The position numbers and the translations under genes were made by a program. This document shows positions 1 to 12,154 of a stretch of DNA of 12,154 nucleotides, piece after piece. The stretch is from positions 1-12,154 of the forward strand of contig JAEZQV010000279.1 of assembly GCA_023441125.1 (NCBI GenBank), read 5' to 3'. Origin of the DNA: Bacillota bacterium. GTDB taxonomy: Bacteria; Bacillota_C; Negativicutes; Sporomusales; Sporomusaceae. The notes beneath the pieces were generated by a model. That model had not been told where the DNA came from, ran no database searches, and was given only the letters and a program-made list of their open reading frames with translations. How positions within the stretch are numbered: position 1 is the first letter of the stretch; each line of letters opens with the position of its first letter.

Positions 1-297
1 GTAGTAGCCTGTCGCACACACTATGTTCACACCGGATTGCAGCGAAATTTCCTTTAAGAGTTCCGGCTGCCGGCCGGCATCATTCGGTGTGGCGTCAACA
101 ATTGTTTGTACCCCGTGGGCTTTAGCCCGCCCGGCGGCAGCTATCCCGATTGCAAGGGCCCGGTCTCTGTCAAACCGTCCCAAAGTCAAATCGCCCGCAA
201 ACCCTGGATAACCGAAGACAAAATGCTCATGCATCAGGGTCTTGCCTAATTGGCCAGCATCAACAGGCCCGGTAACCGTATTGACCTTATCTCCCAT
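1..297 (-). CDS. Phosphotriesterase-family metal hydrolase / lactonase, N-terminal part (truncated by window edge)
   Basis: The first 99 residues of an amidohydrolase-fold protein are visible; the rest lies beyond position 1. The segment TLMHEHF (His23-Glu24-His25) is the first metal-binding His-x-His of the phosphotriesterase family. It is followed by a conserved VDATPNDAGR stretch (about residues 67-76) and NIVCATGYY at the end, which match strands 2 and 3 of the family barrel. Known members hydrolyse lactones, phosphotriesters or other esters with two metal ions held by His, a carboxylated Lys and Asp; those later ligands cannot be checked here. The ATG at 297 has AAGGTGG (308-314) at good spacing. 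The gene begins 18 bases after the stop of the upstream SDR, so it is very likely in the same transcript. In a catabolic cluster a lactonase role is more plausible than organophosphate hydrolysis, but that is inference. Confidence 0.85.
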   Translation of the reverse strand, partial: MGDKVNTVTGPVDAGQLGKTLMHEHFVFGYPGFAGDLTLGRFDRDRALAIGIAAAGRAKAHGVQTIVDATPNDAGRQPELLKEISLQSGVNIVCATGYY

Positions 298-315: not shown

Positions 316-1131
316 CTATTTGATATACACTTTATTATTCGTACCGCCGTTTACTTCCAGCACATGGCCTGTTACATAATCCGACATGTTAGTTGTTAAA
401 AATTCGATGCCATATGCGCAGTCTTCCGGAGTGCCGAACCGTTGCAGGGAAACATTGCGTAAAAATTTATCCTCACCGGTTGCTGCAAACCCTTTTTTTA
501 ATCTGGCGGTGCCGATATACCCCGGGGCAATGCAGTTTACATTAATGCCATAAGAGCCAAGTTCATGGGCAAGCAGCCTGGTATAATGAATAATGGCCGC
601 CTTGGACATTGAATAGTGCGCATACGTTCCGTCAAAGCTGGCCATTTGCCCGCCTACGGAGGCAACGGTTACAATTTTTCCGGCCTGATTCTTTTTCATC
701 ATTGGCGCTACGGCAGTAACCGTGTACACTGTACCGTGCATATTTCTCGCTACTACTTGCTGATAAATATCCAAATCCATTTGCGATGCCTTGCCTTCTG
801 TCAACGGGCCCAGGCCGCCCCCGGCATTGCAAATCAGAATGGACACCTCACCGAGTTCGCCGCTGATTTTTTTCACTGCGGCAAATACTTGTTCCCGATT
901 GGCAATGTCGGCCTCAGCGCCAACCGCCTTTACCCCCAGCGCCTGAATTTCCTCCACGACCGTAGCTGCCGTCAGCTGGTCTGCTTCGGCCTGAAACTCC
1001 TGGAAAGATCGCAAGCTAATATCAATAACGCCGATGTTGGCTCCCAGCTTTGCCAGATGCAGGGCATAGGTTCTGCCCAAACCTCTGGCCGCGCCTGTAA
1101 TTAGCGCGGTTTGTCCAGATAACTTGCCCAT
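316..1131 (-). CDS. Short-chain dehydrogenase/reductase (SDR), copy 1
   Basis: A 271-residue classical SDR, an NAD(P)-dependent oxidoreductase that interconverts a hydroxyl and a ketone. The N-terminal nucleotide-binding motif TGAARGLG starts near residue 12. The ICNAGGG motif, the catalytic serine in VASVGG, and the catalytic YSMSK (Tyr-x-x-x-Lys) follow in the expected order. A C-terminal VTGHVLEVNGG closes the fold. An acidic VIDIS after the second strand suggests NAD(H) rather than NADP(H). The length is slightly above the usual 250 because of an insertion after the second strand (SFQEFQAEADQL). The ATG at 1131 follows a GGGAG-rich Shine-Dalgarno tract, and the gene sits 30 bases after the hydroxyacid dehydrogenase. 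The substrate is unknown; a cyclic or linear hydroxy-ketone intermediate of this cluster is likely. Confidence 0.92.
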   Translation of the reverse strand: MGKLSGQTALITGAARGLGRTYALHLAKLGANIGVIDISLRSFQEFQAEADQLTAATVVEEIQALGVKAVGAEADIANREQVFAAVKKISGELGEVSILICNAGGGLGPLTEGKASQMDLDIYQQVVARNMHGTVYTVTAVAPMMKKNQAGKIVTVASVGGQMASFDGTYAHYSMSKAAIIHYTRLLAHELGSYGINVNCIAPGYIGTARLKKGFAATGEDKFLRNVSLQRFGTPEDCAYGIEFLTTNMSDYVTGHVLEVNGGTNNKVYIK

Positions 1132-1161: not shown

Positions 1162-2127
1162 CTATAGTTTTTTATGGAGCTTCAACAGCTCAATCAGCAT
1201 ATCGTCCCGGAATTTTATCAGGTCTTTATCGGTTTTTCCGAACCCTGCCGGACGATTTTCCAGTTCACGCAGTACGCCTTCATGGGCGATATCAGCCCAT
1301 TCTTCTGGAATTTCTGTTCCTGAGGCCATATCTTTCAGCCACATCATGCCCGGCTCCCGCATTTTGGTCAGCATACCTTTTGCGCCTTGCGGACCACCGC
1401 CAAGATGCAGCGCCAAAATCGGCCCCATGATGGCAAACCGTAGCCCTGGTCCATACAGCATGGCTTTGTCGACATCTTCGATTGTACAAACACCGCGCAT
1501 AACCAGATCCATAATTTCCCTGGAAATTGCCATTTGCAGACGGTTGGCAATAAACCCGAGGGTTTCCTTATTCAAAATGACAGGCTCTTTACCTAATAAC
1601 GAATAAAACTCTTTAACGCAGCTCAGTGTTGCCATACTTGACTGCTCACCTTTAGTTATTTCAACTAAAGGAATCAGGTGAGGCGGATTGTAGGGATGGC
1701 CGCCAATGCATCTTTCCGGATGGTTAGCGTGTTTCGCAATCTCGGTAATCAATAGCCCGGATGTACTGCTGGCAATAATGGCATCCGGCTGAGCATACTT
1801 TTCAACCTCGGCTAATACCTTTTGTTTTATGTCATATTTTTCCGGACCTGATTCCTGAATAAATTGCACATCTTTTACAGCTTCTTCTATATCCAGTGTG
1901 TAGGTTACCAGGGCCATGGCCGCTTCTGCGCCTGCCGGGGATATCACTTCTTTCCTAACAAGAAAATCCACATTGTCTTTTACAGTATCCTTAGCTGCCG
2001 CCAACTGGGCCTGCATGATATCATAAATTACTACCGGGTAACCACGGACAGCAAAATTGGTTGCCCAGCCTGAGCCGATAACCCCCGCGCCGATGCAGGC
2101 AATCTTTTTTATATCGCTAGCCTTCAT
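1162..2127 (-). CDS. NAD-dependent hydroxyacid dehydrogenase, 3-hydroxyacyl-CoA dehydrogenase superfamily (carnitine dehydrogenase-like)
   Basis: A 321-residue protein with the two-domain architecture of 3-hydroxyacyl-CoA dehydrogenases. The N-terminal NAD fold has GAGVIG (residues 13-18) and Asp36 at the end of strand 2, which favours NAD. The ASSTSG serine region lies near residue 120. The catalytic pair appears as GHPYNP (His144) and LVEIT (Glu156). A helical C-terminal dimer domain follows. The size and the HPYNP...LVEI signature resemble L-carnitine dehydrogenase, gulonate dehydrogenase and lambda-crystallin, several of which oxidise free 3-hydroxy acids rather than CoA esters. I chose the ATG at 2127 because GGAG lies 8 bases before it; an in-frame TTG at 2133 would add two residues but sits too close to that site. 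The gene follows a strong hairpin at 2167-2201. No CoA ligase, CoA transferase or thiolase is visible, which also favours a free-acid substrate. Confidence 0.88.
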   Translation of the reverse strand: MKASDIKKIACIGAGVIGSGWATNFAVRGYPVVIYDIMQAQLAAAKDTVKDNVDFLVRKEVISPAGAEAAMALVTYTLDIEEAVKDVQFIQESGPEKYDIKQKVLAEVEKYAQPDAIIASSTSGLLITEIAKHANHPERCIGGHPYNPPHLIPLVEITKGEQSSMATLSCVKEFYSLLGKEPVILNKETLGFIANRLQMAISREIMDLVMRGVCTIEDVDKAMLYGPGLRFAIMGPILALHLGGGPQGAKGMLTKMREPGMMWLKDMASGTEIPEEWADIAHEGVLRELENRPAGFGKTDKDLIKFRDDMLIELLKLHKKL

Positions 2128-2166
2128 TGCCAATTCTCCATTTCTAAGTCTTATTCGGTATTTGTT

Positions 2167-2223: not shown

Positions 2224-3030
2224 TTAATAGATGCCGTATTTATACTCTCTCGGCTTCACATCTTTATTGATTTCATCTTCATCAATAAAAGCGACAATTC
2301 TTACCCAGGAACCATCACCCATATACCATTTGGTCGGAAAAGCGGAAATTACACAGCGTTTGCCCACCACCATTTCAATATCACCGCCGACATTTTCAAA
2401 GCCGGGAATGCCGTTAGAAAGCAGTGTATAATGCACCGGTTCCCATTCCGGATGATCCTCTTTAGGGTTTCGTCCCAGTTCTTGGCGATAGTCTTCAATC
2501 AGACGCGGTACGAAAGGTCCCACACCATGGGCAATCATATAGGTTGCGCACGGATGATCCAAAGCCTGGCAGTCAATGCCGAAAGCCTTAATTTCCCTTT
2601 TTACCAGCCATTCAGCCGCCGCTTTGTTTAAGCCAGGTCCATGAGCGAAATATTTGTCATTATCGCCCCAATAACGATGACTGCCGGTATGAACAATAAC
2701 AATATCGCCTTTTTCGATTTTTGGGGTGGCCTTTTCCAAATCTTCCGGGGTAATTATGCCCCATTTTCCCTTGGGAATGTCAACGATAACGGCAGTTCCG
2801 TGATATTTCTCCAACGGCATTTCATGCATAAACGGCGATTCCTGCACAACATGGGCCGGAGCATCGGTATGGGTACCGATATGCATATGCATTCCATAAA
2901 ACAGTTGGGTCAGGCGATCATGTTTGGCAAAATACTGAACTCTTTTGCTGTGATAATCTTCACCGGCTGGCCACACCGGGGTGTTTTCCCCAAAGGGATG
3001 TGATAAATCAACCAGTTTCATTTTTCCCAT
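2224..3030 (-). CDS. Cyclase-family metal-dependent hydrolase (kynurenine formamidase-like)
   Basis: A 268-residue protein of the bacterial cyclase/kynurenine formamidase-like family. It opens with the typical VDLSHPFGENTPVWP. The signature metal motif is HIGTHTDAPAH, with His50, His54, Asp56 and His60. A second conserved region, GIDCQALDHP, follows in the C-terminal half. Known relatives use Zn or Mn to hydrolyse amide, cyclic amide, lactone or cyclic diketone bonds, for example formylkynurenine and cyclohexane-dione type rings. The ATG at 3030 has GGGAGGAAA about 8 bases upstream; an in-frame TTG at 3057 lacks such a site and I rejected it. It lies between two dehydrogenase genes, which fits hydrolytic ring opening between redox steps. 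The gene is followed by the 2167-2201 hairpin. Substrate not identifiable from sequence. Confidence 0.88.
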   Translation of the reverse strand: MGKMKLVDLSHPFGENTPVWPAGEDYHSKRVQYFAKHDRLTQLFYGMHMHIGTHTDAPAHVVQESPFMHEMPLEKYHGTAVIVDIPKGKWGIITPEDLEKATPKIEKGDIVIVHTGSHRYWGDNDKYFAHGPGLNKAAAEWLVKREIKAFGIDCQALDHPCATYMIAHGVGPFVPRLIEDYRQELGRNPKEDHPEWEPVHYTLLSNGIPGFENVGGDIEMVVGKRCVISAFPTKWYMGDGSWVRIVAFIDEDEINKDVKPREYKYGIY

Positions 3031-3157
3031 AGTAAATTTCCTCCCTAGTTTTAACAACTGTGTTTGTTATTTTTTTACATCTATAATATATTGACCGCAA
3101 CGCCGCTGCCGCTTTGACTGCACAGCTCAGCAATGGCGGGCATATTATAGCTCATTT

Positions 3158-3931
3158 CTAACCGATGGCCGTAAGGCCGCCATCGGGGTAAATAACCTGG
3201 CCTGTCACATAGTTTGATGCATCTGACGCCAGAAAGACCGCCGCCCCCATCATATCTTCCGGTACGCTGAGTCTGCCTAATGGATGCGCACCGGTAAGGC
3301 GTTGCTGCAAAGCAGGATTGTCTGCCAGCAGCTTTGCCATCATGGGGGTTTCGGTAACCGTAGGCCCCACCGCATTTACGGTAATATGAAAGGGAGCAAG
3401 CTCAACCGCCAGCGTCCTGGTCATCATATCCACAGCGCCTTTACTCGAATTGTAGGCACTGTTTCCGCCCCCGCAGGCTCTAGCCCCCCGTACGGAAGAT
3501 ACATTAATAATTTTGCCGTAGTTTTGCTGGGACATAATTTGGGCAAACGCTTTGCAGCACATCATTACGCCTTTTACATTTACATTAAATAAGGCATCCC
3601 ACTGGTCCATCGGAAATTCCAGAGCGTTTTGCTTGATATTAATTCCCTGGGAGTTCACCAGGATGTCAACTCTGCCCATTTCGGCAACCACTTTGTCGGC
3701 AAGGGCTTTAATACTGTCTTCATTGGCAGAGTCTACCTGAAATATTTTTACCTCTTTGCCAATTTCGCTCTGGATTTCTTGCGCTGCCTTGGCCAGATTC
3801 TCAAGTTTTCTGCTGGCAATCCCTACATTGGCACCATAGAAAGCCAAGGCCTTGGCAATTGCCTGACCAATGCCGCCGGCACCGCCAATGACTATGGCAT
3901 TTTTCTCTTGTAACGAAAAAATATCTTTCAT
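3158..3931 (-). CDS. Short-chain dehydrogenase/reductase (SDR), copy 2 (gluconate 5-dehydrogenase-like)
   Basis: A 257-residue classical SDR. The nucleotide-binding motif is GGAGGIG (from about residue 16), with ASRK after the second strand; that basic pair is often linked to NADP(H). NSQG takes the place of the usual NAG. The catalytic residues are the serine of INVSSVRG and YNSSK (Tyr-x-x-x-Lys). The C-terminus VTGQVIYPDGG is typical. It shares general fold features with the SDR at 316-1131 but is clearly a separate paralogue. The ATG at 3931 has an excellent AAAGGAGG about 9 bases upstream and lies 47 bases after the cupin gene. The final codons form a GC-rich hairpin (GATGGC...GCCATC), but it has no T tail. 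Likely role: reduction or oxidation of a keto/hydroxy intermediate; substrate unknown. Confidence 0.92.
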   Translation of the reverse strand: MKDIFSLQEKNAIVIGGAGGIGQAIAKALAFYGANVGIASRKLENLAKAAQEIQSEIGKEVKIFQVDSANEDSIKALADKVVAEMGRVDILVNSQGINIKQNALEFPMDQWDALFNVNVKGVMMCCKAFAQIMSQQNYGKIINVSSVRGARACGGGNSAYNSSKGAVDMMTRTLAVELAPFHITVNAVGPTVTETPMMAKLLADNPALQQRLTGAHPLGRLSVPEDMMGAAVFLASDASNYVTGQVIYPDGGLTAIG

Positions 3932-3978: not shown

Positions 3979-4305
3979 CTACATGATGACAAGCATTGTC
4001 GCCGGTAAGTTGGTTTCATTAATGACTTCTCGGCCGTCACCAGGCAGGATATGGATGGAATCCCATTTTCGCAGGACAAATTTGTCACTCTTTGTTTTGA
4101 CTGTGATTTCGCCTTCCAGTACGAAATAAACTAATTCCATAGGCACTTCCGCATATTCCGCACCGCCACCGGGGAGAAAATGGGACATCCCCAGCCAGTA
4201 CTTTGATTCGCCGGCACTTTCTTTCTCGTGCAGTTTCAGTCCAACCATATTAAAATGCTTCGGAGCTGCGTACGGTGTAACATTCTTTAACTCAATCTTC
4301 TTCAT
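3979..4305 (-). CDS. Small single-domain cupin with degenerate metal-binding motifs
   Basis: A 108-residue protein with the double-stranded beta-helix pattern of cupins. The recognisable core is LPGGGAEY (44-51), ELVYFVLEGE (57-66), then a second motif around LPGDGREVIN (87-96). In typical cupins motif 1 reads HxHxxxExxxVLxG and motif 2 ends in HxxxN. Here the two histidine positions are Tyr51 and Glu53, the glutamate (Glu57) is kept, and the motif 2 histidine position is Arg92. It therefore probably does not bind a metal in the standard way. It may act as a binding, sensing or non-metal isomerase domain. GGGAGG lies 5 bases before the ATG at 4305. It is the first gene of the cupin-SDR-cyclase group, 228 bases after the GRE activase. 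Function not identified. Confidence 0.8.
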   Translation of the reverse strand: MKKIELKNVTPYAAPKHFNMVGLKLHEKESAGESKYWLGMSHFLPGGGAEYAEVPMELVYFVLEGEITVKTKSDKFVLRKWDSIHILPGDGREVINETNLPATMLVIM

Positions 4306-4533: not shown

Positions 4534-5454
4534 TTACCCGCCAATTTGCGCAGTCAAGCCATAACTTGCAAACAAAGCTTTAATTTGTTCCTGCCGTTCC
4601 GGCGAAATCAGTTGCACATCACCTAATTTGTATTCCATGCCGATCTGGGCATACTTCACTTTGCCAAATTGATGTACAGGCAGTATATCCACTCTTACCA
4701 CCGCTGGCAGCGTTGCCAGAAAGGCCGCAGTTGCTGTAAGGTTTTGCTGCGAATCGGTATATCCCGGGATAACAGGCACCCGGATTATGATCTCTTTCCC
4801 CAGGGCGTTCAGATTTTTTAGGTTTTCTAAAATAATTTCATTGGGAACGCCGGTGTTTTTAAGGTGGTCCTGCGAATCCATTCCTTTCAGATCGAACAGG
4901 ATCAAGTCGGCTTCAGCCAAAGCCTGGCGCCCTTCCGTACTGGTGACATAGCCGCAGGTATCAATAGCGGTGTGAATATAGTTTTCTTTGCATTTCCGGA
5001 TTAGCGCCAGCGTGAATTCAGGCTGCCAGGTCGCTTCACCGCCGCCAATGGTTACCCCACCGTCAGAGGAACGGTAAAAAATCGCATCCTTTTGGATGAT
5101 GTTAAACAGTTCCTCCACGGTATACTCTTTGCCAAAAAAGCTTAATGCGTTGGTATAGCACACATCTATGCACCGGCCGCAATGGTTGCAGAGCTTCCGG
5201 TCTACGGTAAGCAAAATGCCGCCTGGCTGATTTTCCATGAGAATGGCCCCCTGAGGGCAGGCAGAAACACAGTTTCCGCACCCGTTACAATCGGCGGCAA
5301 TAACTTTTAATTCTTGCTGAAAGGCCTGCCCCTCGGGATTACAGCACCAAATGCATTTTAGCGGGCAGCCTTTTAAAAATACGGTTGTCCGTATTCCGTA
5401 GCCATCAACAAAAGATCCATGAATAATATGAAATACCGACCCTTTAATCGCCAT
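4534..5454 (-). CDS. Glycyl radical enzyme activating protein (radical SAM, with two extra 4Fe-4S clusters)
   Basis: A 306-residue radical-SAM activase of the pyruvate-formate-lyase-activase family. It uses a 4Fe-4S cluster and S-adenosylmethionine to abstract a hydrogen from the partner GRE glycine. The SAM cluster motif is Cys30-x3-Cys34-x2-Cys37 in KGCPLKCIWCCNPEG. A two-cluster ferredoxin insert follows, with Cys56/59/62/66 and Cys89/92/95/99, as in activases of the non-PFL GREs. The GGGEATWQPEF motif binds the SAM amino group. The conserved DGPGIR just before the cluster reads DGYGIR (Tyr19). I prefer the ATG at 5454: AAAGGA sits 6 bases upstream, whereas the in-frame GTG at 5472 overlaps the GRE end and has no spaced ribosome site. 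Only 11 bases separate it from the GRE stop, so the pair is translationally linked. All cluster cysteines are present, which makes the missing glycine of its neighbour puzzling. Confidence 0.95.
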   Translation of the reverse strand: MAIKGSVFHIIHGSFVDGYGIRTTVFLKGCPLKCIWCCNPEGQAFQQELKVIAADCNGCGNCVSACPQGAILMENQPGGILLTVDRKLCNHCGRCIDVCYTNALSFFGKEYTVEELFNIIQKDAIFYRSSDGGVTIGGGEATWQPEFTLALIRKCKENYIHTAIDTCGYVTSTEGRQALAEADLILFDLKGMDSQDHLKNTGVPNEIILENLKNLNALGKEIIIRVPVIPGYTDSQQNLTATAAFLATLPAVVRVDILPVHQFGKVKYAQIGMEYKLGDVQLISPERQEQIKALFASYGLTAQIGG

Positions 5455-5465
5455 ACTGTTCCTTT

Positions 5466-7835
5466 CTAACACTCCTGGAATTCCATTCTGTCAATAATGT
5501 CGTTCTGGAGTTCGGTACTGAGCTCAACAAAATACGCACTGTAGGTTGCCACCCGCACCAGTAAATCTTTATACTTTTCCGGCTCCTTTTGCGCTTTCTT
5601 CAGCGTATCGGTACTTACAATATTAAACTGTACAAGATACCCGCCGGTCTCACAGAAGGTTCTGATCAGGCTGGCAAATTTTTTGATTTTGCCAGTATCT
5701 TTAAAGGCGTCCGGACTAAATCGCATGTTAAGAACAGAACCGTTGGTAATTTTGGTGTGGTCCAGTTTCGCTACCGACATTAGTGTCGCGGTAGGCCCGC
5801 ACACATTGCGGCCTTGATGCGGCGATATGCCGCCCTCGGCAATGGGAGTTCCCGCCTTCCTCCCGTCCGGCAAAGCGCCGACAACAAATCCCAGCGGGAT
5901 ATTAGCCGTAACCGTGCCGGCCGCACAGTTGGAGACGGCTCCCCTAAATCCCTTGACCTTACCCACTTCGCGGCTGCCAAGCGCAATTACGTCATTGACA
6001 AACGAATCCACATACTCATCATCGTTGCCGAATTTCGGAACAGCGGCCAATATCTGCAGAATTTGCTCTTCTCCGGCAAAGTTTTTATCCAATGCGTTGA
6101 TCAATTGTTCCATAGTGATTTTTTTATCTTCAAAGACGGCTTTTTTAATGGCCGCCAACGAATCGCCCACATTGGGTGTACCTGCCAGCGAAACCGCATA
6201 GCTGATATACGGCGCCGTGCCGCCGTTAAACACATCCAGCCCTTTTTTGATGCATGACTCGTACAGCGAGGATTCGAAAACAATCGGCAAATACTCACCG
6301 AACAACTGCTTATCCACATTTCTAAACAGCAGGGCGGCCGGCATTAATGCTTCTACCTGCTTGGCAAAAGCCTGCCAAACCTCTGCAAACGAGTTGAATT
6401 TTCTAGGATCTCCTGTCTGCGGGCCGATTTGTTGTCCTGTCATTCGGGAAACACCGTTATTCAGTGCTAACTCCAGCAAGAACGGCATATTTACCATTCC
6501 GCCGGGAATATCCAGGGAATGCCCGGGTACGGTCGGGCTGTTGCAGCCGGTTACCCCGTAATTTCTGGCTAATTCCAGCGGTTTTCCGTCCCGCATAAGC
6601 TGCTGGATGGTCGTCTCATCGCTCAGGAATTTGATTTTCCCGCTGAGTTTATAAGCCACCTCACAGGCTTTAATCACAAATGCATCCGGCGTCTTTTTGT
6701 GAATCCTCACGATAATATCCTCAGAATTTAGCGCGATGTCTTTTTCAGCTTCAAGAAAAAGATAGGAAAGCTCATTAACAGCATTCTTACCCTGCTCCGT
6801 TATTCCACCTAAAATGAAATTTACCCCGGCTGATAAACCGGCAAAAAACCGTACCGCTTGGGAAGGATAAATAATAATCATGCCGTTACATTTGATATAG
6901 AGCAGTTCGATTAGTTCAATGACTTCCGCATCAGTAATTCTGCCTGCGACTATATCTTTTTTGTAGAAAGGATACAAATACTGGTCAACTCTGCCAAAGC
7001 CATTTCCCGGCCCTATGCCTTCAATCATAATTACCAGATAAGCAAACCACATCGACTGCAGCGCCTCATAAAACGTTTCCGCCGGCTGATAAGGAACCCG
7101 CTTACAAGTTGCCGCAATCTTCTCCAGCTCTGCTTTTTTCTGACTGTCGTGCTCTCTTGCCGCCATTTCGGCGGCAAGGTCGGCATAGCGTTTGGCAAAA
7201 CCAACTGTCGCCTCCAGCGTAATATTAACCGCTGTTAAGAACTGATATTTTTCAAAGTCTGCCACATCAGCAAAATTTAGCGTGGCCATTTCGTCCTGGA
7301 TCTGCTGCTGGAGGCCTTTTATCCCTTTCGTAATAATTACGTTATAATCAGCACTGGAGTGGCCGAAATACTGGTTGTTGCCGCAGAAGGCGCCGCCCCC
7401 CTGCACCAGGTTGTTTAATTTCAGGATGCTCGGCGGTATCCGCGCCGTCCACATATCTAGCAGTGATTTATCTTGCCAGTAGGGCATAAATTCACGCATT
7501 TTCGCTTTGTCTTCCTCTTGAATGGGAGCAAATTTATCGACACTTCTCGTCGAAAGTTCTTCCATTTCTGCCAGATACCAGCTGGCGTTAAGCTCCGGCG
7601 TCATCACCCCGCCGCGCTGCTTACTGGACCCCCGGCCGACAATAAGCTCTCCCTCATCAATATAAATACTCATTTCCTGTAAAATCTTGGCCACCGCCAT
7701 GGCTCTTCGCAGTATGTGCGGCTGGCTTTCCGTCTGCTTATAGGATTCAGTCAGCAGTAAACCTCGTTCAATGCACACTTCGGGCATTGAAAGCATCTTC
7801 TCCCGCAATTTTAATACCCTTGCACTAGCTTCCAT
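5466..7835 (-). CDS. Glycyl radical enzyme (PFL/diol dehydratase-like) with threonine at the radical glycine position
   Basis: A 789-residue, full-length GRE of the PFL2/CutC-like superfamily. An N-terminal PFL domain runs to about residue 640; conserved landmarks include GRGSSKQRGG (67-76), FGNDDEYVD and ALPDGRKAG. The active-site loop is GVTGCNSP with Cys431, the expected thiyl residue. The C-terminal domain is typical (GGYLVQFNIVS, then LLVRVATYSAYFVEL), but where relatives read RVAGYSA this protein reads RVATYSA. Thr764 (codon ACC at 5544-5546) replaces the glycine that carries the stored radical. Cys+2 is Ser433, not the Glu of diol, choline or hydroxyproline lyases, so a classical dehydration is doubtful. 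The ATG at 7835 follows AAAGGAG, 38 bases after the transporter gene. The frame is open throughout. It is sure to be a GRE homologue; whether it is catalytic, and on what, is open. Confidence 0.95.
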   Translation of the reverse strand: MEASARVLKLREKMLSMPEVCIERGLLLTESYKQTESQPHILRRAMAVAKILQEMSIYIDEGELIVGRGSSKQRGGVMTPELNASWYLAEMEELSTRSVDKFAPIQEEDKAKMREFMPYWQDKSLLDMWTARIPPSILKLNNLVQGGGAFCGNNQYFGHSSADYNVIITKGIKGLQQQIQDEMATLNFADVADFEKYQFLTAVNITLEATVGFAKRYADLAAEMAAREHDSQKKAELEKIAATCKRVPYQPAETFYEALQSMWFAYLVIMIEGIGPGNGFGRVDQYLYPFYKKDIVAGRITDAEVIELIELLYIKCNGMIIIYPSQAVRFFAGLSAGVNFILGGITEQGKNAVNELSYLFLEAEKDIALNSEDIIVRIHKKTPDAFVIKACEVAYKLSGKIKFLSDETTIQQLMRDGKPLELARNYGVTGCNSPTVPGHSLDIPGGMVNMPFLLELALNNGVSRMTGQQIGPQTGDPRKFNSFAEVWQAFAKQVEALMPAALLFRNVDKQLFGEYLPIVFESSLYESCIKKGLDVFNGGTAPYISYAVSLAGTPNVGDSLAAIKKAVFEDKKITMEQLINALDKNFAGEEQILQILAAVPKFGNDDEYVDSFVNDVIALGSREVGKVKGFRGAVSNCAAGTVTANIPLGFVVGALPDGRKAGTPIAEGGISPHQGRNVCGPTATLMSVAKLDHTKITNGSVLNMRFSPDAFKDTGKIKKFASLIRTFCETGGYLVQFNIVSTDTLKKAQKEPEKYKDLLVRVATYSAYFVELSTELQNDIIDRMEFQEC

Positions 7836-7873: not shown

Positions 7874-9166
7874 TCATCTCTGAATTTCGCCGAAGGCAGA
7901 CTGTTCATTATTAACCTGAGAATATACTTGCGGCGGACTCAAAAAGCTGGTGGCAATGGCGCCCACAACACAGACCCCGGCAACAATAGTGATCGATACG
8001 ATATATTGGCCTGTGGCATGCAATGCCGCCGCCCCGGTCGCAACCCCGGCCACACCGCCAAAAACGCTGATTCCATAGACAATGCCGCCCACTTTGCCGG
8101 TAATATGCTCAGGGTAGTGCTTGGAAATGAACGCCATAACCTGCGGTTGAATCAGCGATGAGAAAAAACCAAAGAGTACTAACGCGATCAGTAAGCTGGT
8201 ATCATTGGCTACAATTCCGGCAACACGCAAACTGTACGCCGCTGCACATGACACAATGTATCCCATCATAATTACCGGTTTTTCCCTGCCTTTAAACAGC
8301 TTTTCGGTTATAAAGCCACCGCTTACCGCACCGATCATGAAAATAAATGAGACCAGGGAAAACATTTGGCCGGAGCCGATAGCCCCCTTACCCAGGCCAA
8401 CCGGCGGGTCGACCGACAAATAAACCGGCGTCAGATCGTTAAAGGCCTGGAATATCCAGGTAAGGCCAAAGTTACAAATCACCGCGATCCAGGTCGTGGG
8501 CTGCGCCAGCGCCAGCTTAACTTCAGCGGTTATCTCACTCAGGTTCTCTTCCTTGCCAACACTATGAGTAACAGGCGGCTTGGGTCCTAAGGCTACTATT
8601 ACAACCAGAATAAAGGCAATAACGCTACTAAAAACTCCTTCCCAGAATAAACCGGTCTGCCAGCTGCCAGTCAGGTGCGCAAGCATAGGTCCAAGGACAA
8701 TGCCGACAGTTACACCAATGCCCATTGCCAAGCCCTGCAAGCCGGCTACTATGCCCCGTTCCTTGGCAGGAAACCATTGGGCAGCCAGTGCCGGCACACA
8801 GCCCATAATCGGCCCGGTACCTGCCCCCTGAATAATTCTTACAAAGGTTATGCCTTTTGGGGTATCGCCGATAAGCGGTGTTAACACGGCTCCCAGGATC
8901 AGGAGCCCTAAACAGCCAAACCACACGCGGACAAGACCAAACCGGTCGATAATTGCCCCGCCGGTAATTGCCCCCAAAGCAACCAGCAGATTAAAGGTTC
9001 CCATGACAATGCCTACCGTTATTCCCATGTCCAGCCCAATCGTGCGGGCAACCTCAACCTGAAGTGGGGCAATGGAAATCAGCGCAAACGCAGACGCAAC
9101 GGTTACGAGCACATAAGTTGCGACAACAAACCATCGAAAACGCGGATAATTAACTGTCTTTTCCAC
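7874..9166 (-). CDS. Major facilitator superfamily (MFS) transporter
   Basis: A 430-residue integral membrane protein with about 12 hydrophobic segments in two halves joined by a charged cytoplasmic loop (around residues 195-215, KPPVTHSVGKEENLSE). The MFS signature between segments 2 and 3 reads GAIIDRFGLVR (residues 70-80). The second half has a related GGFITEKLFKGREKP loop. It belongs to the broad group of organic-acid/oxalate-formate-like MFS carriers by general appearance, but I cannot name a substrate. The start is GTG at 9166 with AGGAGG 7 bases upstream; an ATG three bases earlier is out of frame. It lies 117 bases after the chemoreceptor and 38 bases before the GRE. The position suggests it imports the GRE pathway substrate or exports a product. 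Confidence 0.9.
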   Translation of the reverse strand: MEKTVNYPRFRWFVVATYVLVTVASAFALISIAPLQVEVARTIGLDMGITVGIVMGTFNLLVALGAITGGAIIDRFGLVRVWFGCLGLLILGAVLTPLIGDTPKGITFVRIIQGAGTGPIMGCVPALAAQWFPAKERGIVAGLQGLAMGIGVTVGIVLGPMLAHLTGSWQTGLFWEGVFSSVIAFILVVIVALGPKPPVTHSVGKEENLSEITAEVKLALAQPTTWIAVICNFGLTWIFQAFNDLTPVYLSVDPPVGLGKGAIGSGQMFSLVSFIFMIGAVSGGFITEKLFKGREKPVIMMGYIVSCAAAYSLRVAGIVANDTSLLIALVLFGFFSSLIQPQVMAFISKHYPEHITGKVGGIVYGISVFGGVAGVATGAAALHATGQYIVSITIVAGVCVVGAIATSFLSPPQVYSQVNNEQSAFGEIQR

Positions 9167-9283: not shown

Positions 9284-10117
9284 TTACATTGTTTTAGCCA
9301 GTTCCTCAAGTTCACCGGAGGTAGAGGCCAGTGACTCCATCGTCGAAGAAATTTCCTGCATGGCTGCAGCCTGTCTTTCACTAATCGTTGACGTGTTCTG
9401 AATTGTTTTTACTACTGCCACAGTTTCTTCATGGATAGCCAAGAGAATCTGCTTTATTTCCCGCACCGCTTGAGCGCTGTTCGCTGCCATTTTGCGTATT
9501 TCATCGGCGACAACGGCAAATCCCCTCCCTTTTTCCCCTGCCCGGGCCGCTTCAATGGCGGCATTCAGGCCGAGCAAATTCGAATTGGCGGCGACATCAC
9601 TGACAAATTTCAGGATATCATCGGTTCTGTTGATTCTCGCCAGGACATTCTCGCTGCCGTTCCTTGCTTTATCTAACTCTTTAGCAAGATGAACGGCATT
9701 AGCTCCCAACTCCTGGGTACTGGCAGCCATTTCTTCCGTCGTAGCTGCGATGGCTTGGGCAGCACTGTTAAGGGTATCCTGGCTGTCCAGACTTACGGCA
9801 ATAACCAGCACGCCGGCAACCTGACCGTCTTCGTCAAATATCGGACAGTTATGCGTTTTCCAGCGGAACCCGAAAACCTCTTTGGGAACAATGATCGTAA
9901 GCGGCTTCTTCTCTCTTATACAGTCATACGTTACTGCGTCCGCCGGAAGCTTGTCGCCTATCCTGAATGAGGGTATGACCGGGTTTTTTAAATGAAAGTC
10001 GGCCGGTAGCGAAGCCAATACAATTCCATTTCGGTCAATAACCAGCACGCTGCAATCCAAAGGACAGGCAATTTGAATAATTTCCGCAGAAGCAACCACC
10101 GCATCAAGCTTATTCAC
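9284..10117 (-). CDS. Soluble methyl-accepting chemotaxis protein with short N-terminal sensor domain
   Basis: A 277-residue receptor with no hydrophobic membrane segment, so cytoplasmic. Residues 1 to about 112 form a sensor domain with alternating strands ([35 protein letters not shown]), PAS/Cache-like in layout; I cannot assign a ligand. It contains several cysteines (Cys18, Cys22, Cys66, Cys91). Residues 115-277 are a coiled-coil signalling domain whose hairpin tip carries the highly conserved [20 protein letters not shown] and [12 protein letters not shown] (about 180-211), the CheA/CheW contact region. The adaptation helices are short. The start is GTG at 10117 with AGAGG upstream; no in-frame ATG is near. 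It is the first gene ahead of the transporter and GRE, which suggests chemotaxis toward the same compound or a redox cue. Confidence 0.9.
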
Positions 10118-10396: not shown

Positions 10397-12154
10397 TTAG
10401 ATTTGCATTGCTGCCGAAAAAGCGCTGGCTATTGCGTGTTCTACTGTCGCTGGCCGCACACAGTCACCGACAGCAACAAACCGGTCTGCTACTGCCCGGA
10501 AAGACTCTGCTTGCTGGTCCATAGCGCGTAAACCAACGGCAATAATTACACTATCGGCGTCAACCCGCTGTCCGTCGCCGGCTTGATCCTGATAGGCAAT
10601 GCCAGTTTCCATAATAGACGTGCAGCAAGCGGAAGTAAGATAACTAATATTTTTATCCTTATCCAGTTCCAGCAACAACTCTGTCCGGTGTGTTCGGGAA
10701 GCGTCAGGAGCAATTTCCGGCTTCATTTCTACAACAGTTACCGTTTTACCCATTCTTGCCAGATGTAACGCAGTTTCACAGCCAACCTGTCCACCACCGA
10801 CAATTACAATTTTCGGACCCAGCTGCGCTTCCTGCCCATAGGTTTGTAAAGCCATCAGCACATTTGAGCCGCCAATGCCGGGAATCGGTGGTATGATCGG
10901 TGTGGCACCAACGGCCGCAATAATAACGTCGGCATTTTCTGCCATCACAAGTTTTGGTGTTGCCTCAGTATTTAGCTGCACACGAATATTAGATTTTGAC
11001 ACCTGATGAACAAGATACTCTGTAAACCGATTCAGATCGTATTTGAAAGCTACGTAGCCTGCAAATTTTATGGCACCGCCAAGTGACTCACTTTTTTCAA
11101 GCAGGGTAACGTCATGGCCGCGTTCCGCCGCAATCAGCGCCGCCTTCATACCGGCAGGGCCACCGCCAATAACCAGCACTTTTTTCCGGACGGCAGCAGG
11201 TTGGACCAAGGCCGGCAGAAAATGTTCAAAACCAATTACCGGGTTAACAGAACAAACATAACGATTTTCATATACGGCACTATCATGACAGCGCATACAC
11301 TTAATACAGGGGATTATATCGTCGCCCCGGCCGTTATAGGCTTTTTCCCCTAAATCAGGATCGGCAATAAATCCCCGCGCAATGCTGACGATATCAGCTC
11401 TTCCGCCGGCAATTATTTTCTCAGCTCCGCTAAGTTCCTGAATACCCCCGATGGTCACGACAGGAATTCTTACATTCGCTTTTTTTACTGCCTCAGCCAG
11501 AAAGACGTTCGGCATCGGCGGCAAAAAGCCGCAGGGATGCGTTACTGTCATCCATTTAGGGATATGCATACCGGCGGAAACGTGAATAAGATCAATTTTA
11601 TCCTGTATCATCCTGATAAATTCAATAGCCTCGTCAATAACAATTCCGCCCGGCTCAAATTCAGTTCCACTGATACGAACCTCAATAAGCAGATCTTTTC
11701 CGACCTTTTCGCGAATACGATCGATAATCATGCTGGGAAACCGCGCCCGGTTTTCCAGACTGCCACCGAATTCATCGGTTCGCTTGTTGCTTAAAGGCGA
11801 AAGAAATTGACCGACTTGAAGGGCATGCCCAAAATGCAACAAGACCATATCAAAACCGGCCTCTTGCAAAGCAGCGGCGGCATATGCATAGCCATCTGCC
11901 GTACGTTCGATTTCTGCTGCTGACATTTCTTTGCCCAGTTGCCCATCGATCAGGAGAACACCATCGCTGACTGCGTGTACACTGCCGGCCACACCGCCAA
12001 CACCCAGTTCCATCGACGCTTTGGCCCCATAAAAATGGATGCGGTCCGCAAGTTGCGCCAGATAATGCCGGGGAGCTCTACTATATACGTCATAGCCGAG
12101 ATTACCGTCATTTGTTACAGGAAAAATGCTGACGCCGGCACAAGTGACACAGGC
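10397..12154 (-). CDS. NADH:flavin oxidoreductase, 2,4-dienoyl-CoA reductase/enoate reductase type (5' end outside window)
   Basis: 585 residues are visible and the frame stays open to the window edge, so the true start lies upstream; the ATG at 12013 is internal, as the 47 codons before it (AGVSIF, GYDVYSRAP, HFYGAKAS) fit the family's FMN barrel. About 60-80 residues are probably missing. Numbering from the first visible residue, the barrel contains GQFLSPLSNKRTDEFGGSLENR; a 4Fe-4S site follows with Cys283, Cys286, Cys289 and Cys301 (spacing 2-2-11). The FAD fold has GGGPAG (330-335) and the NAD(P)H fold has GGGQVG (453-458). Such enzymes reduce activated C=C bonds of enoates, enones or dienoyl-CoA. 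The stretch usually reading HGAHGY is HFGHAL, so the dienoyl-CoA reductase tyrosine position is leucine. The gene is closed by the 10335-10372 hairpin, so it is a separate transcript next to the GRE unit. Confidence 0.92.
   Translation of the reverse strand, partial: ACVTCAGVSIFPVTNDGNLGYDVYSRAPRHYLAQLADRIHFYGAKASMELGVGGVAGSVHAVSDGVLLIDGQLGKEMSAAEIERTADGYAYAAAALQEAGFDMVLLHFGHALQVGQFLSPLSNKRTDEFGGSLENRARFPSMIIDRIREKVGKDLLIEVRISGTEFEPGGIVIDEAIEFIRMIQDKIDLIHVSAGMHIPKWMTVTHPCGFLPPMPNVFLAEAVKKANVRIPVVTIGGIQELSGAEKIIAGGRADIVSIARGFIADPDLGEKAYNGRGDDIIPCIKCMRCHDSAVYENRYVCSVNPVIGFEHFLPALVQPAAVRKKVLVIGGGPAGMKAALIAAERGHDVTLLEKSESLGGAIKFAGYVAFKYDLNRFTEYLVHQVSKSNIRVQLNTEATPKLVMAENADVIIAAVGATPIIPPIPGIGGSNVLMALQTYGQEAQLGPKIVIVGGGQVGCETALHLARMGKTVTVVEMKPEIAPDASRTHRTELLLELDKDKNISYLTSACCTSIMETGIAYQDQAGDGQRVDADSVIIAVGLRAMDQQAESFRAVADRFVAVGDCVRPATVEHAIASAFSAAMQI

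Follow-up and report, generated by a model that had tools for sequence, protein, structure and literature searches.

Can an enzyme built like a glycyl radical enzyme (GRE) work when the residue that should store the radical is threonine in place of glycine, and what may such an enzyme work on? The question is raised by a minus-strand gene at 5466..7835 of the window, by which we mean the whole analysed stretch of 12154 bases. Its open reading frame encodes a protein of 789 aa with a PFL-like barrel and a Gly_radical domain, both well over the Pfam cut-offs, and in the translation residue 764 is T inside the motif DLLVRVATYSAYFVELSTELQNDII. On the plus strand, positions 5544-5546 read GGT; codon 764 (5544..5546, minus strand) is therefore ACC, and the radical site reads RVATY; the Gly that marks a canonical GRE at this site is absent from the window protein.

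Such enzymes have been described. Fu et al. (2024; PMC11528403) presented 17 alanyl, 21 serinyl and 71 threonyl radical enzymes, and assigned the EPR signals installed by their activases to alpha-carbon radicals on Ala, Ser or Thr. For FpTRE1 and FpTRE2 the Thr alpha-carbon radical was activase-dependent and was assigned by eliminating alternatives, and thiyl formation in FpTRE1 was backed by indirect evidence. Three sequence features of a threonyl radical enzyme (TRE), one kind of aminoacyl radical enzyme (AARE), are found in the window: Thr in the RVxGY position, a conserved catalytic (thiyl) Cys midway along the chain, and a nearby CX3CX2C radical SAM activase with auxiliary clusters, as in the published TREs (PMC11528403). 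The window protein is an additional TRE of an already published class, and the substitution itself is not new. We consider that the protein is a working TRE, with a probability of about 0.88. The published TREs came mainly from human-gut metagenome genomes (PMC11528403), whereas the window TRE is Sporomusa-like. It groups in a single clade with Thr enzymes from Oscillospiraceae-type genomes, among which no sequence was identified as an FpTRE. In the open-access literature after Fu et al. 2024, the later work found concerned other enzymes.

The radical-site codon and its conservation

The first homologue search gave 1,872 matches, of which the best 120 were taken for alignment. Two of these (P0073 and P0109) end before the motif, and the remaining 118 motif-reaching sequences all have Thr at position 764. 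The closest homologue listed, a Sporomusa aerivorans protein of 90% identity, also has Thr. Genomic searches gave 5 strong matches (E <= 1e-190) in 3 of 300 genomes from the class of a Sporomusa malonica genome, and 12 (E <= 1e-160) in 8 of 300 genomes from the family of an Oscillospiraceae genome. These 17 genes, from 11 other genomes, all encode Thr at the site, with the codons ACC (7), ACA (4), ACG (4) and ACT (2). Since the homologues conserve Thr and all four Thr codons are in use, the residue is kept by selection and is not an error.

The original prediction had regarded the substitution as real, arguing that a change from Gly to Thr requires two base changes and that a single sequencing error was unlikely. 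The ACC codon and the Thr shared by the listed homologues bear this out. The prediction had also proposed a search for Gly in homologues as a test that could overturn it, and none was found among the motif-reaching sequences listed. Its suggestion of a recent inactivation is contradicted by the conservation of Thr over a large family. A strain-specific mutation or a sequencing or assembly error has practically no probability left, because every listed homologue long enough to include the motif has Thr, as do the genes of 11 other genomes; together with the variety of Thr codons, we regard error and recent inactivation as ruled out.

A contig scan gave at least 80 loci, with Gly in 79 and Thr in none of those whose motif was read (the motif of one locus, L072, was not among them). 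Twelve genomes of the S. malonica family yielded 30 matches, all of at most 41% identity and none with Thr. No match at E <= 1e-205 was obtained in 400 genomes (one phylum draw) or in two overlapping draws of 249, the viral contigs gave no matches, and the 152 plasmid records that matched were every one below 60% identity.

The statement that the frame is intact to a normal C-terminus holds as well. The AlphaFold2 model, built from an alignment of 37 sequences, has a mean pLDDT of 92.5 and a pTM of 0.92, and its top Foldseek match in the PDB is 1r8w, the B12-independent glycerol dehydratase (TM 0.96), which is consistent with an intact predicted fold. No PDB entry is named as a TRE, and the radical-site motif was viewed in a few entries.

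The activase and the proposed stored radical

The gene adjoining the TRE gene (4534..5472, minus strand; the true start may be an ATG a few codons inside) encodes a GRE-type activase, a radical SAM protein with two ferredoxin-type clusters. Both ferredoxin motifs and the CX3CX2C motif are present, so that the cluster cysteines are kept, as the original prediction had noted. The sequence CPLKCIWCC (5341..5367, minus strand) comprises the CX3CX2C motif and an extra cysteine, Cys44, which immediately follows the last of the three cluster cysteines. A tree of 71 activases places the window activase and those of nine other TRE loci, two of which are separated from the TRE by intervening genes, in one clade with an SH-aLRT of 99. 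Cys44 is present in all 10 of these activases vs 2 of the 61 others, which mostly have His, Ser or Ala at this position, and an aromatic residue in the motif DG-x-G is found in 9 of the 10 vs none of the 61 (Pro in 48). Both positions presumably lie near the bound glycine loop in the PFL activase. Among the papers listed by a literature search on activase residues, none dealt with the activases of TRE loci.

To follow residues that track with Thr, we used an alignment of 452 rows, which comprised the best 120 matches from each of three homologue searches (1,872, 710 and 3,508 matches) and the genomic genes, and which was thus picked by similarity and is non-random. Residue 764 is Thr in 171 rows, Gly in 261, Ala in 16 and Ser in 1, and the site is missing in three. 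Cys431 (6543..6545, minus strand), the thiyl radical residue predicted from the alignment, is Cys in all of the Thr, Gly and Ala rows. Residue 677 (5805..5807, minus strand) covaries with Thr764: it is Asn in 169 of the 171 Thr rows, the exceptions being P0264 (Ser) and P0292 (Asp), and in none of the 261 Gly or 16 Ala rows; the Gly rows have Asp (241), Glu (19) or Ala (1).

From these data and the published relatives, we propose that the activase would cleave SAM and that the resulting 5'-deoxyadenosyl radical would abstract the alpha-hydrogen of Thr764. The radical stored on Thr764 would then move to Cys431, whose thiyl radical would activate the substrate, and would afterwards return to Thr764. 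Asn677, Cys44 and the Ala-rich sister clade described below offer concrete hypotheses on how a stored radical may be shifted from glycine to a chiral residue. The original prediction had listed a radical stored on some other residue among its explanations. As a candidate, storage on a residue other than Gly stands, and in the relatives FpTRE1 and FpTRE2 the radical was assigned to the Thr itself (PMC11528403).

The other readings were weighed against the same evidence. Were the protein a catalytically dead paralogue that serves as a scaffold or regulator, position 764 would simply tolerate Thr, and it speaks for this that Fu et al. 2024 (PMC11528403) report no reaction for any TRE, although radical formation was observed by EPR in relatives in the same study. 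It is difficult to reconcile such a protein with an invariant Cys431, with the finding that Thr, and not just any residue, is invariant within the clade, and with the separate clade formed by the activases of TRE loci. We therefore regard this reading as improbable, and both the invariant Cys and the activase clade specific to TREs speak against the non-radical scaffold that the original prediction had mentioned.

Stand-alone proteins of the YfiD/GrcA type repair PFL in other bacteria, and the original prediction had suggested that such a glycyl radical domain might supply the radical in trans. The C-terminus of the TRE does match GrcA models weakly. However, a search of 11 related TRE genomes, other than the source genome, for a stand-alone Gly_radical protein gave 65 Gly_radical matches with no open frame shorter than 341 aa, and the published relatives were activated directly (PMC11528403), which makes a supply in trans very improbable. 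Equally remote is an attack of the activase on the Thr side chain, with either of two outcomes: beta-scission of an alkoxyl radical, which would release acetaldehyde and leave a glycyl radical, or oxidation of the Thr. The stereochemistry lends this some weight: the hydrogen that GRE activases abstract from glycine is held to be the pro-S one and a changed stereospecificity is noted by Fu et al. (PMC11528403), and by our own reading the side chain of an L-residue would occupy the pro-S position. Against it, the EPR spectra of FpTRE1 and FpTRE2 contained no glycyl doublet, on which ground we rejected beta-scission to a glycyl radical, and oxygen-, beta- and gamma-centred radicals were excluded by the authors (PMC11528403). 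The working TRE, with its radical on Thr764, is thus the reading that we retain.

Descent and active site of the TREs

In a tree of 62 sequences inferred with columns 764 and 677 removed, the 15 TRE rows form one clade with bootstrap/SH-aLRT values of 100/96. The clade was recovered in further trees, with 99/96 when both columns were again removed, with 99/97 when only column 764 was removed, and with 99 in a quick tree. Its sister clade (98/92) has 11 rows, 10 with Ala and one nested row, P0248, with Ser. The rows of the sister clade are P0140, P0151, P0157 and P0241-P0248. An Ala-rich sister clade favours the order Gly, Ala, Thr, with one base change per step (GGN, GCN, ACN), and this suggests that residue 764 changed in that order. 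A route through Ala or Ser was named as possible by Fu et al. 2024 (PMC11528403); in their analysis the serinyl enzymes stood beside the TREs and the alanyl enzymes apart, whereas the sister clade found here is mostly Ala. Ala or Ser also occurs elsewhere in our tree, so that 4 changes are needed, of which 3 are forced by supported branches (P0204 is a single sequence, and the Ala rows are known here from protein sequences), in contrast to the single origin suggested by Fu et al. 2024 (PMC11528403).

The residue two positions after the catalytic Cys is Ser433 in the window protein (6537..6539, minus strand). At this position Glu is present in 225 of the 261 Gly rows and 15 of the 16 Ala rows vs 14 of the 171 Thr rows. 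When the Thr rows were sorted by pairwise identity to tree representatives, Glu was found in 14 of 18 early TRE rows vs 0 of 153 rows in the larger group of the window. Therefore, this eliminase Glu was probably lost within the TREs, on the branch leading to the window. An absence of the Glu from the whole TRE family, which a count of 0 of 136 had indicated, was too strong a statement, as wider searches gave 9 of 150 and then 14 of 171. A Glu assigned to L172 by pattern search belonged to another GC site, and the alignment has no Glu at Cys+2 in L172.

The substrate contacts of glycerol dehydratase, which we take to be N156, H164, H281, S282, Y339, C433, E435, D447 and Y640, map by alignment to N153, H159, P276, G277, G337, C431, S433, P444 and G640 of the window protein. 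Only 3 of the 9 are kept, so the pocket is unlikely to hold a small polyol as glycerol dehydratase does. The glycerol and propanediol dehydratases 1r8w and 5i2g match the window TRE over the whole predicted fold (TM 0.96 and 0.95-0.96) and have the Cys and Gly-loop architecture in common with it, but differ in the radical site (Gly vs Thr), the Cys+2 residue (Glu vs Ser) and most of these contacts. The window TRE therefore lacks the combination of Cys+2 Glu and polar contacts (the contact list being the one assumed above) by which a GRE eliminase is recognised. Since the window branch is without this Glu and without most polar contacts of the diol dehydratases, a simple diol dehydration is unlikely, and we rejected a simple diol dehydratase as a candidate function.

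The operon and its likeness to phloroglucinol breakdown

According to Fu et al. 2024 (PMC11528403), no reaction has yet been assigned to any AARE, finding one is critical, and varied genomic contexts have hampered prediction. The window contains eleven genes in the same direction, all on the minus strand. In order of transcription, these encode an OYE/BaiCD-like reductase (10397..12154, frame open to the right edge), a soluble sensor with an MCP signalling domain (9284..10117), an MFS transporter whose gene immediately precedes that of the TRE (7874..9166), the TRE, the activase, a cupin (3979..4305), an SDR (SDR1, 3158..3931), a cyclase-family hydrolase like dihydrophloroglucinol cyclohydrolase (DPGC; 2224..3057), a 3HCDH-family dehydrogenase (1162..2133), a second SDR (316..1131) and a phosphotriesterase-family protein, perhaps a lactonase (1..297). 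As the last gene only starts within the window and runs past the left edge, the operon extends beyond it. The counts of promoters and terminators in the window were no better than chance. A published but non-defining general pattern is two TREs per activase (PMC11528403); the window has, in its 12154 bases, one TRE adjoining its activase in an operon that passes both edges. The DPGC-like hydrolase sets the window operon apart from the TRE loci described in the main text of Fu et al. (PMC11528403), and neither there nor in the open-access literature searched (most subscription journals lie outside it) was a TRE tied to such an operon.

A comparable gene set without a TRE was found in a 20-kb stretch of S. 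malonica, which encodes a sensor, a cyclase, an SDR, a cupin, a CoA transferase, a thiolase, a BKACE protein and a TfD-like dehydrogenase (the CoA transferase, thiolase and BKACE were named from reading of the sequences). This set matches the characterised phloroglucinol cluster of Zhou et al. 2023 (PMC10470551), and a Clostridium-genus genome, G958, has a cluster similar to that of S. malonica. The S. malonica cyclase has both Trp20 and Tyr22, as reported for the characterised DPGC of C. scatologenes (PMC10470551). The window cyclase, 37% identical to the S. malonica enzyme, retains the WP-motif Trp together with the C-terminal part but has Ala in place of Tyr22, and thus lacks the residue pair of a DPGC.

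The window operon has in common with the phloroglucinol cluster (PMC10470551) a cyclase-family hydrolase, an SDR, a 3HCDH-family dehydrogenase and an MFS transporter, and its cupin recurs in phloroglucinol-type clusters, in S. malonica and in a Clostridium genome. Unlike that cluster, it contains TRE, activase, OYE and phosphotriesterase-family genes, has no CoA transferase or thiolase within the window, and has a cyclase without Tyr22. No BKACE-type triacetate lyase was found among the window genes, the operon continuing past the left edge. The lack of a BKACE lyase in the window and the Ala for Tyr22 argue that the operon is not the phloroglucinol pathway itself. The identities to S. malonica (cupin 68%, SDR1 41%, cyclase 37%, and 32.5% over 246 aa between the 3HCDH-family dehydrogenase and the TfD-like protein) make it look like a variant of the pathway for another ring compound. 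The S. malonica cluster (L145, 9534-18936) is of phloroglucinol type, and the role of its cupin is unassigned; cupins of this type recur at two Clostridium-genus loci (L158 and L160) and at L192 of an Oscillospiraceae-type genome.

We tentatively propose that the TRE may perform an early step in an operon for the uptake and degradation of a cyclic, polyphenol-like compound, in which a cyclic 1,3-diketone would be formed and then opened by the cyclohydrolase-like enzyme. This pathway role, inferred from the gene neighbourhood, is possible but more doubtful than not, and clearly less likely than the assignment as a working TRE. A fuller and slightly more doubtful version is that the TRE would catalyse the entry step of an undescribed anaerobic pathway: by a threonyl-radical reaction without the eliminase Glu, a cyclic polyphenol-like or alicyclic substrate would become a 1,3-diketone for the DPGC-like cyclohydrolase. 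In this version, if it is true, no TRE before the window TRE would have had a pathway assigned to it, and TREs would have arisen once via an alanyl-radical ancestor (Gly, Ala, Thr), with Asn677 and Cys44 of the activase as part of the change. The position of the TRE within a one-direction array of recognisable catabolic partners provides a testable clue to the reaction of TREs. Given this array and the 90%-identical S. aerivorans protein, it seems feasible to test induction and substrates in a relative that is in culture.

The window cyclase was matched (E <= 1e-5) in 11 of 11 TRE genomes tested, the weakest match being in G1038 (2.5e-8, over part of the length), and also in 5 of 10 Gly-enzyme genomes, which are from other taxa and are not a matched control for the 11; the S. 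malonica cyclase was matched in 5 of 7 Clostridium-genus genomes. Neighbours were examined at ten of the matched cyclase places. In G1110, DPGC homologues of 65% identity occur at two loci, each beside a TfD-like gene, accompanied at one (L192) by BKACE and cupin genes and at the other (L193) by a thiolase gene. In G731 a 69%-identical DPGC adjoins an SDR, and in G726 a window-type cyclase adjoins an OYE gene. Within the stretches examined at 14 other TRE loci, no relative of the cyclase or cupin was found beside the TRE, so the link is local to the window operon. The neighbours at these loci vary and include an FAD reductase, a UGSC protein, an OYE, a VOC protein and SDRs; in G731 a 66%-identical copy of the window sensor adjoins the TRE. 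A link of OYE to TREs in general is weak (2 of 14 loci by phmmer), the comparison of 14 TRE loci with 65 Gly loci being thin.

Several features of these genomes were observed in passing. G726 carries three TREs (L141, L142 and L143) that are 72, 64 and 53% identical to the window TRE, and for two of them the flanking sequence, about 8 kb in each direction, yielded no activase. G998 and G1023, with 14 and 16 Gly_radical matches, are unusually rich in these among the 11 genomes searched. In two TRE-bearing genomes, cyclase-family genes lie in tandem pairs (L188, 8708-10321; L189, 9411-11021), whose products are 40-48% identical to the window cyclase.
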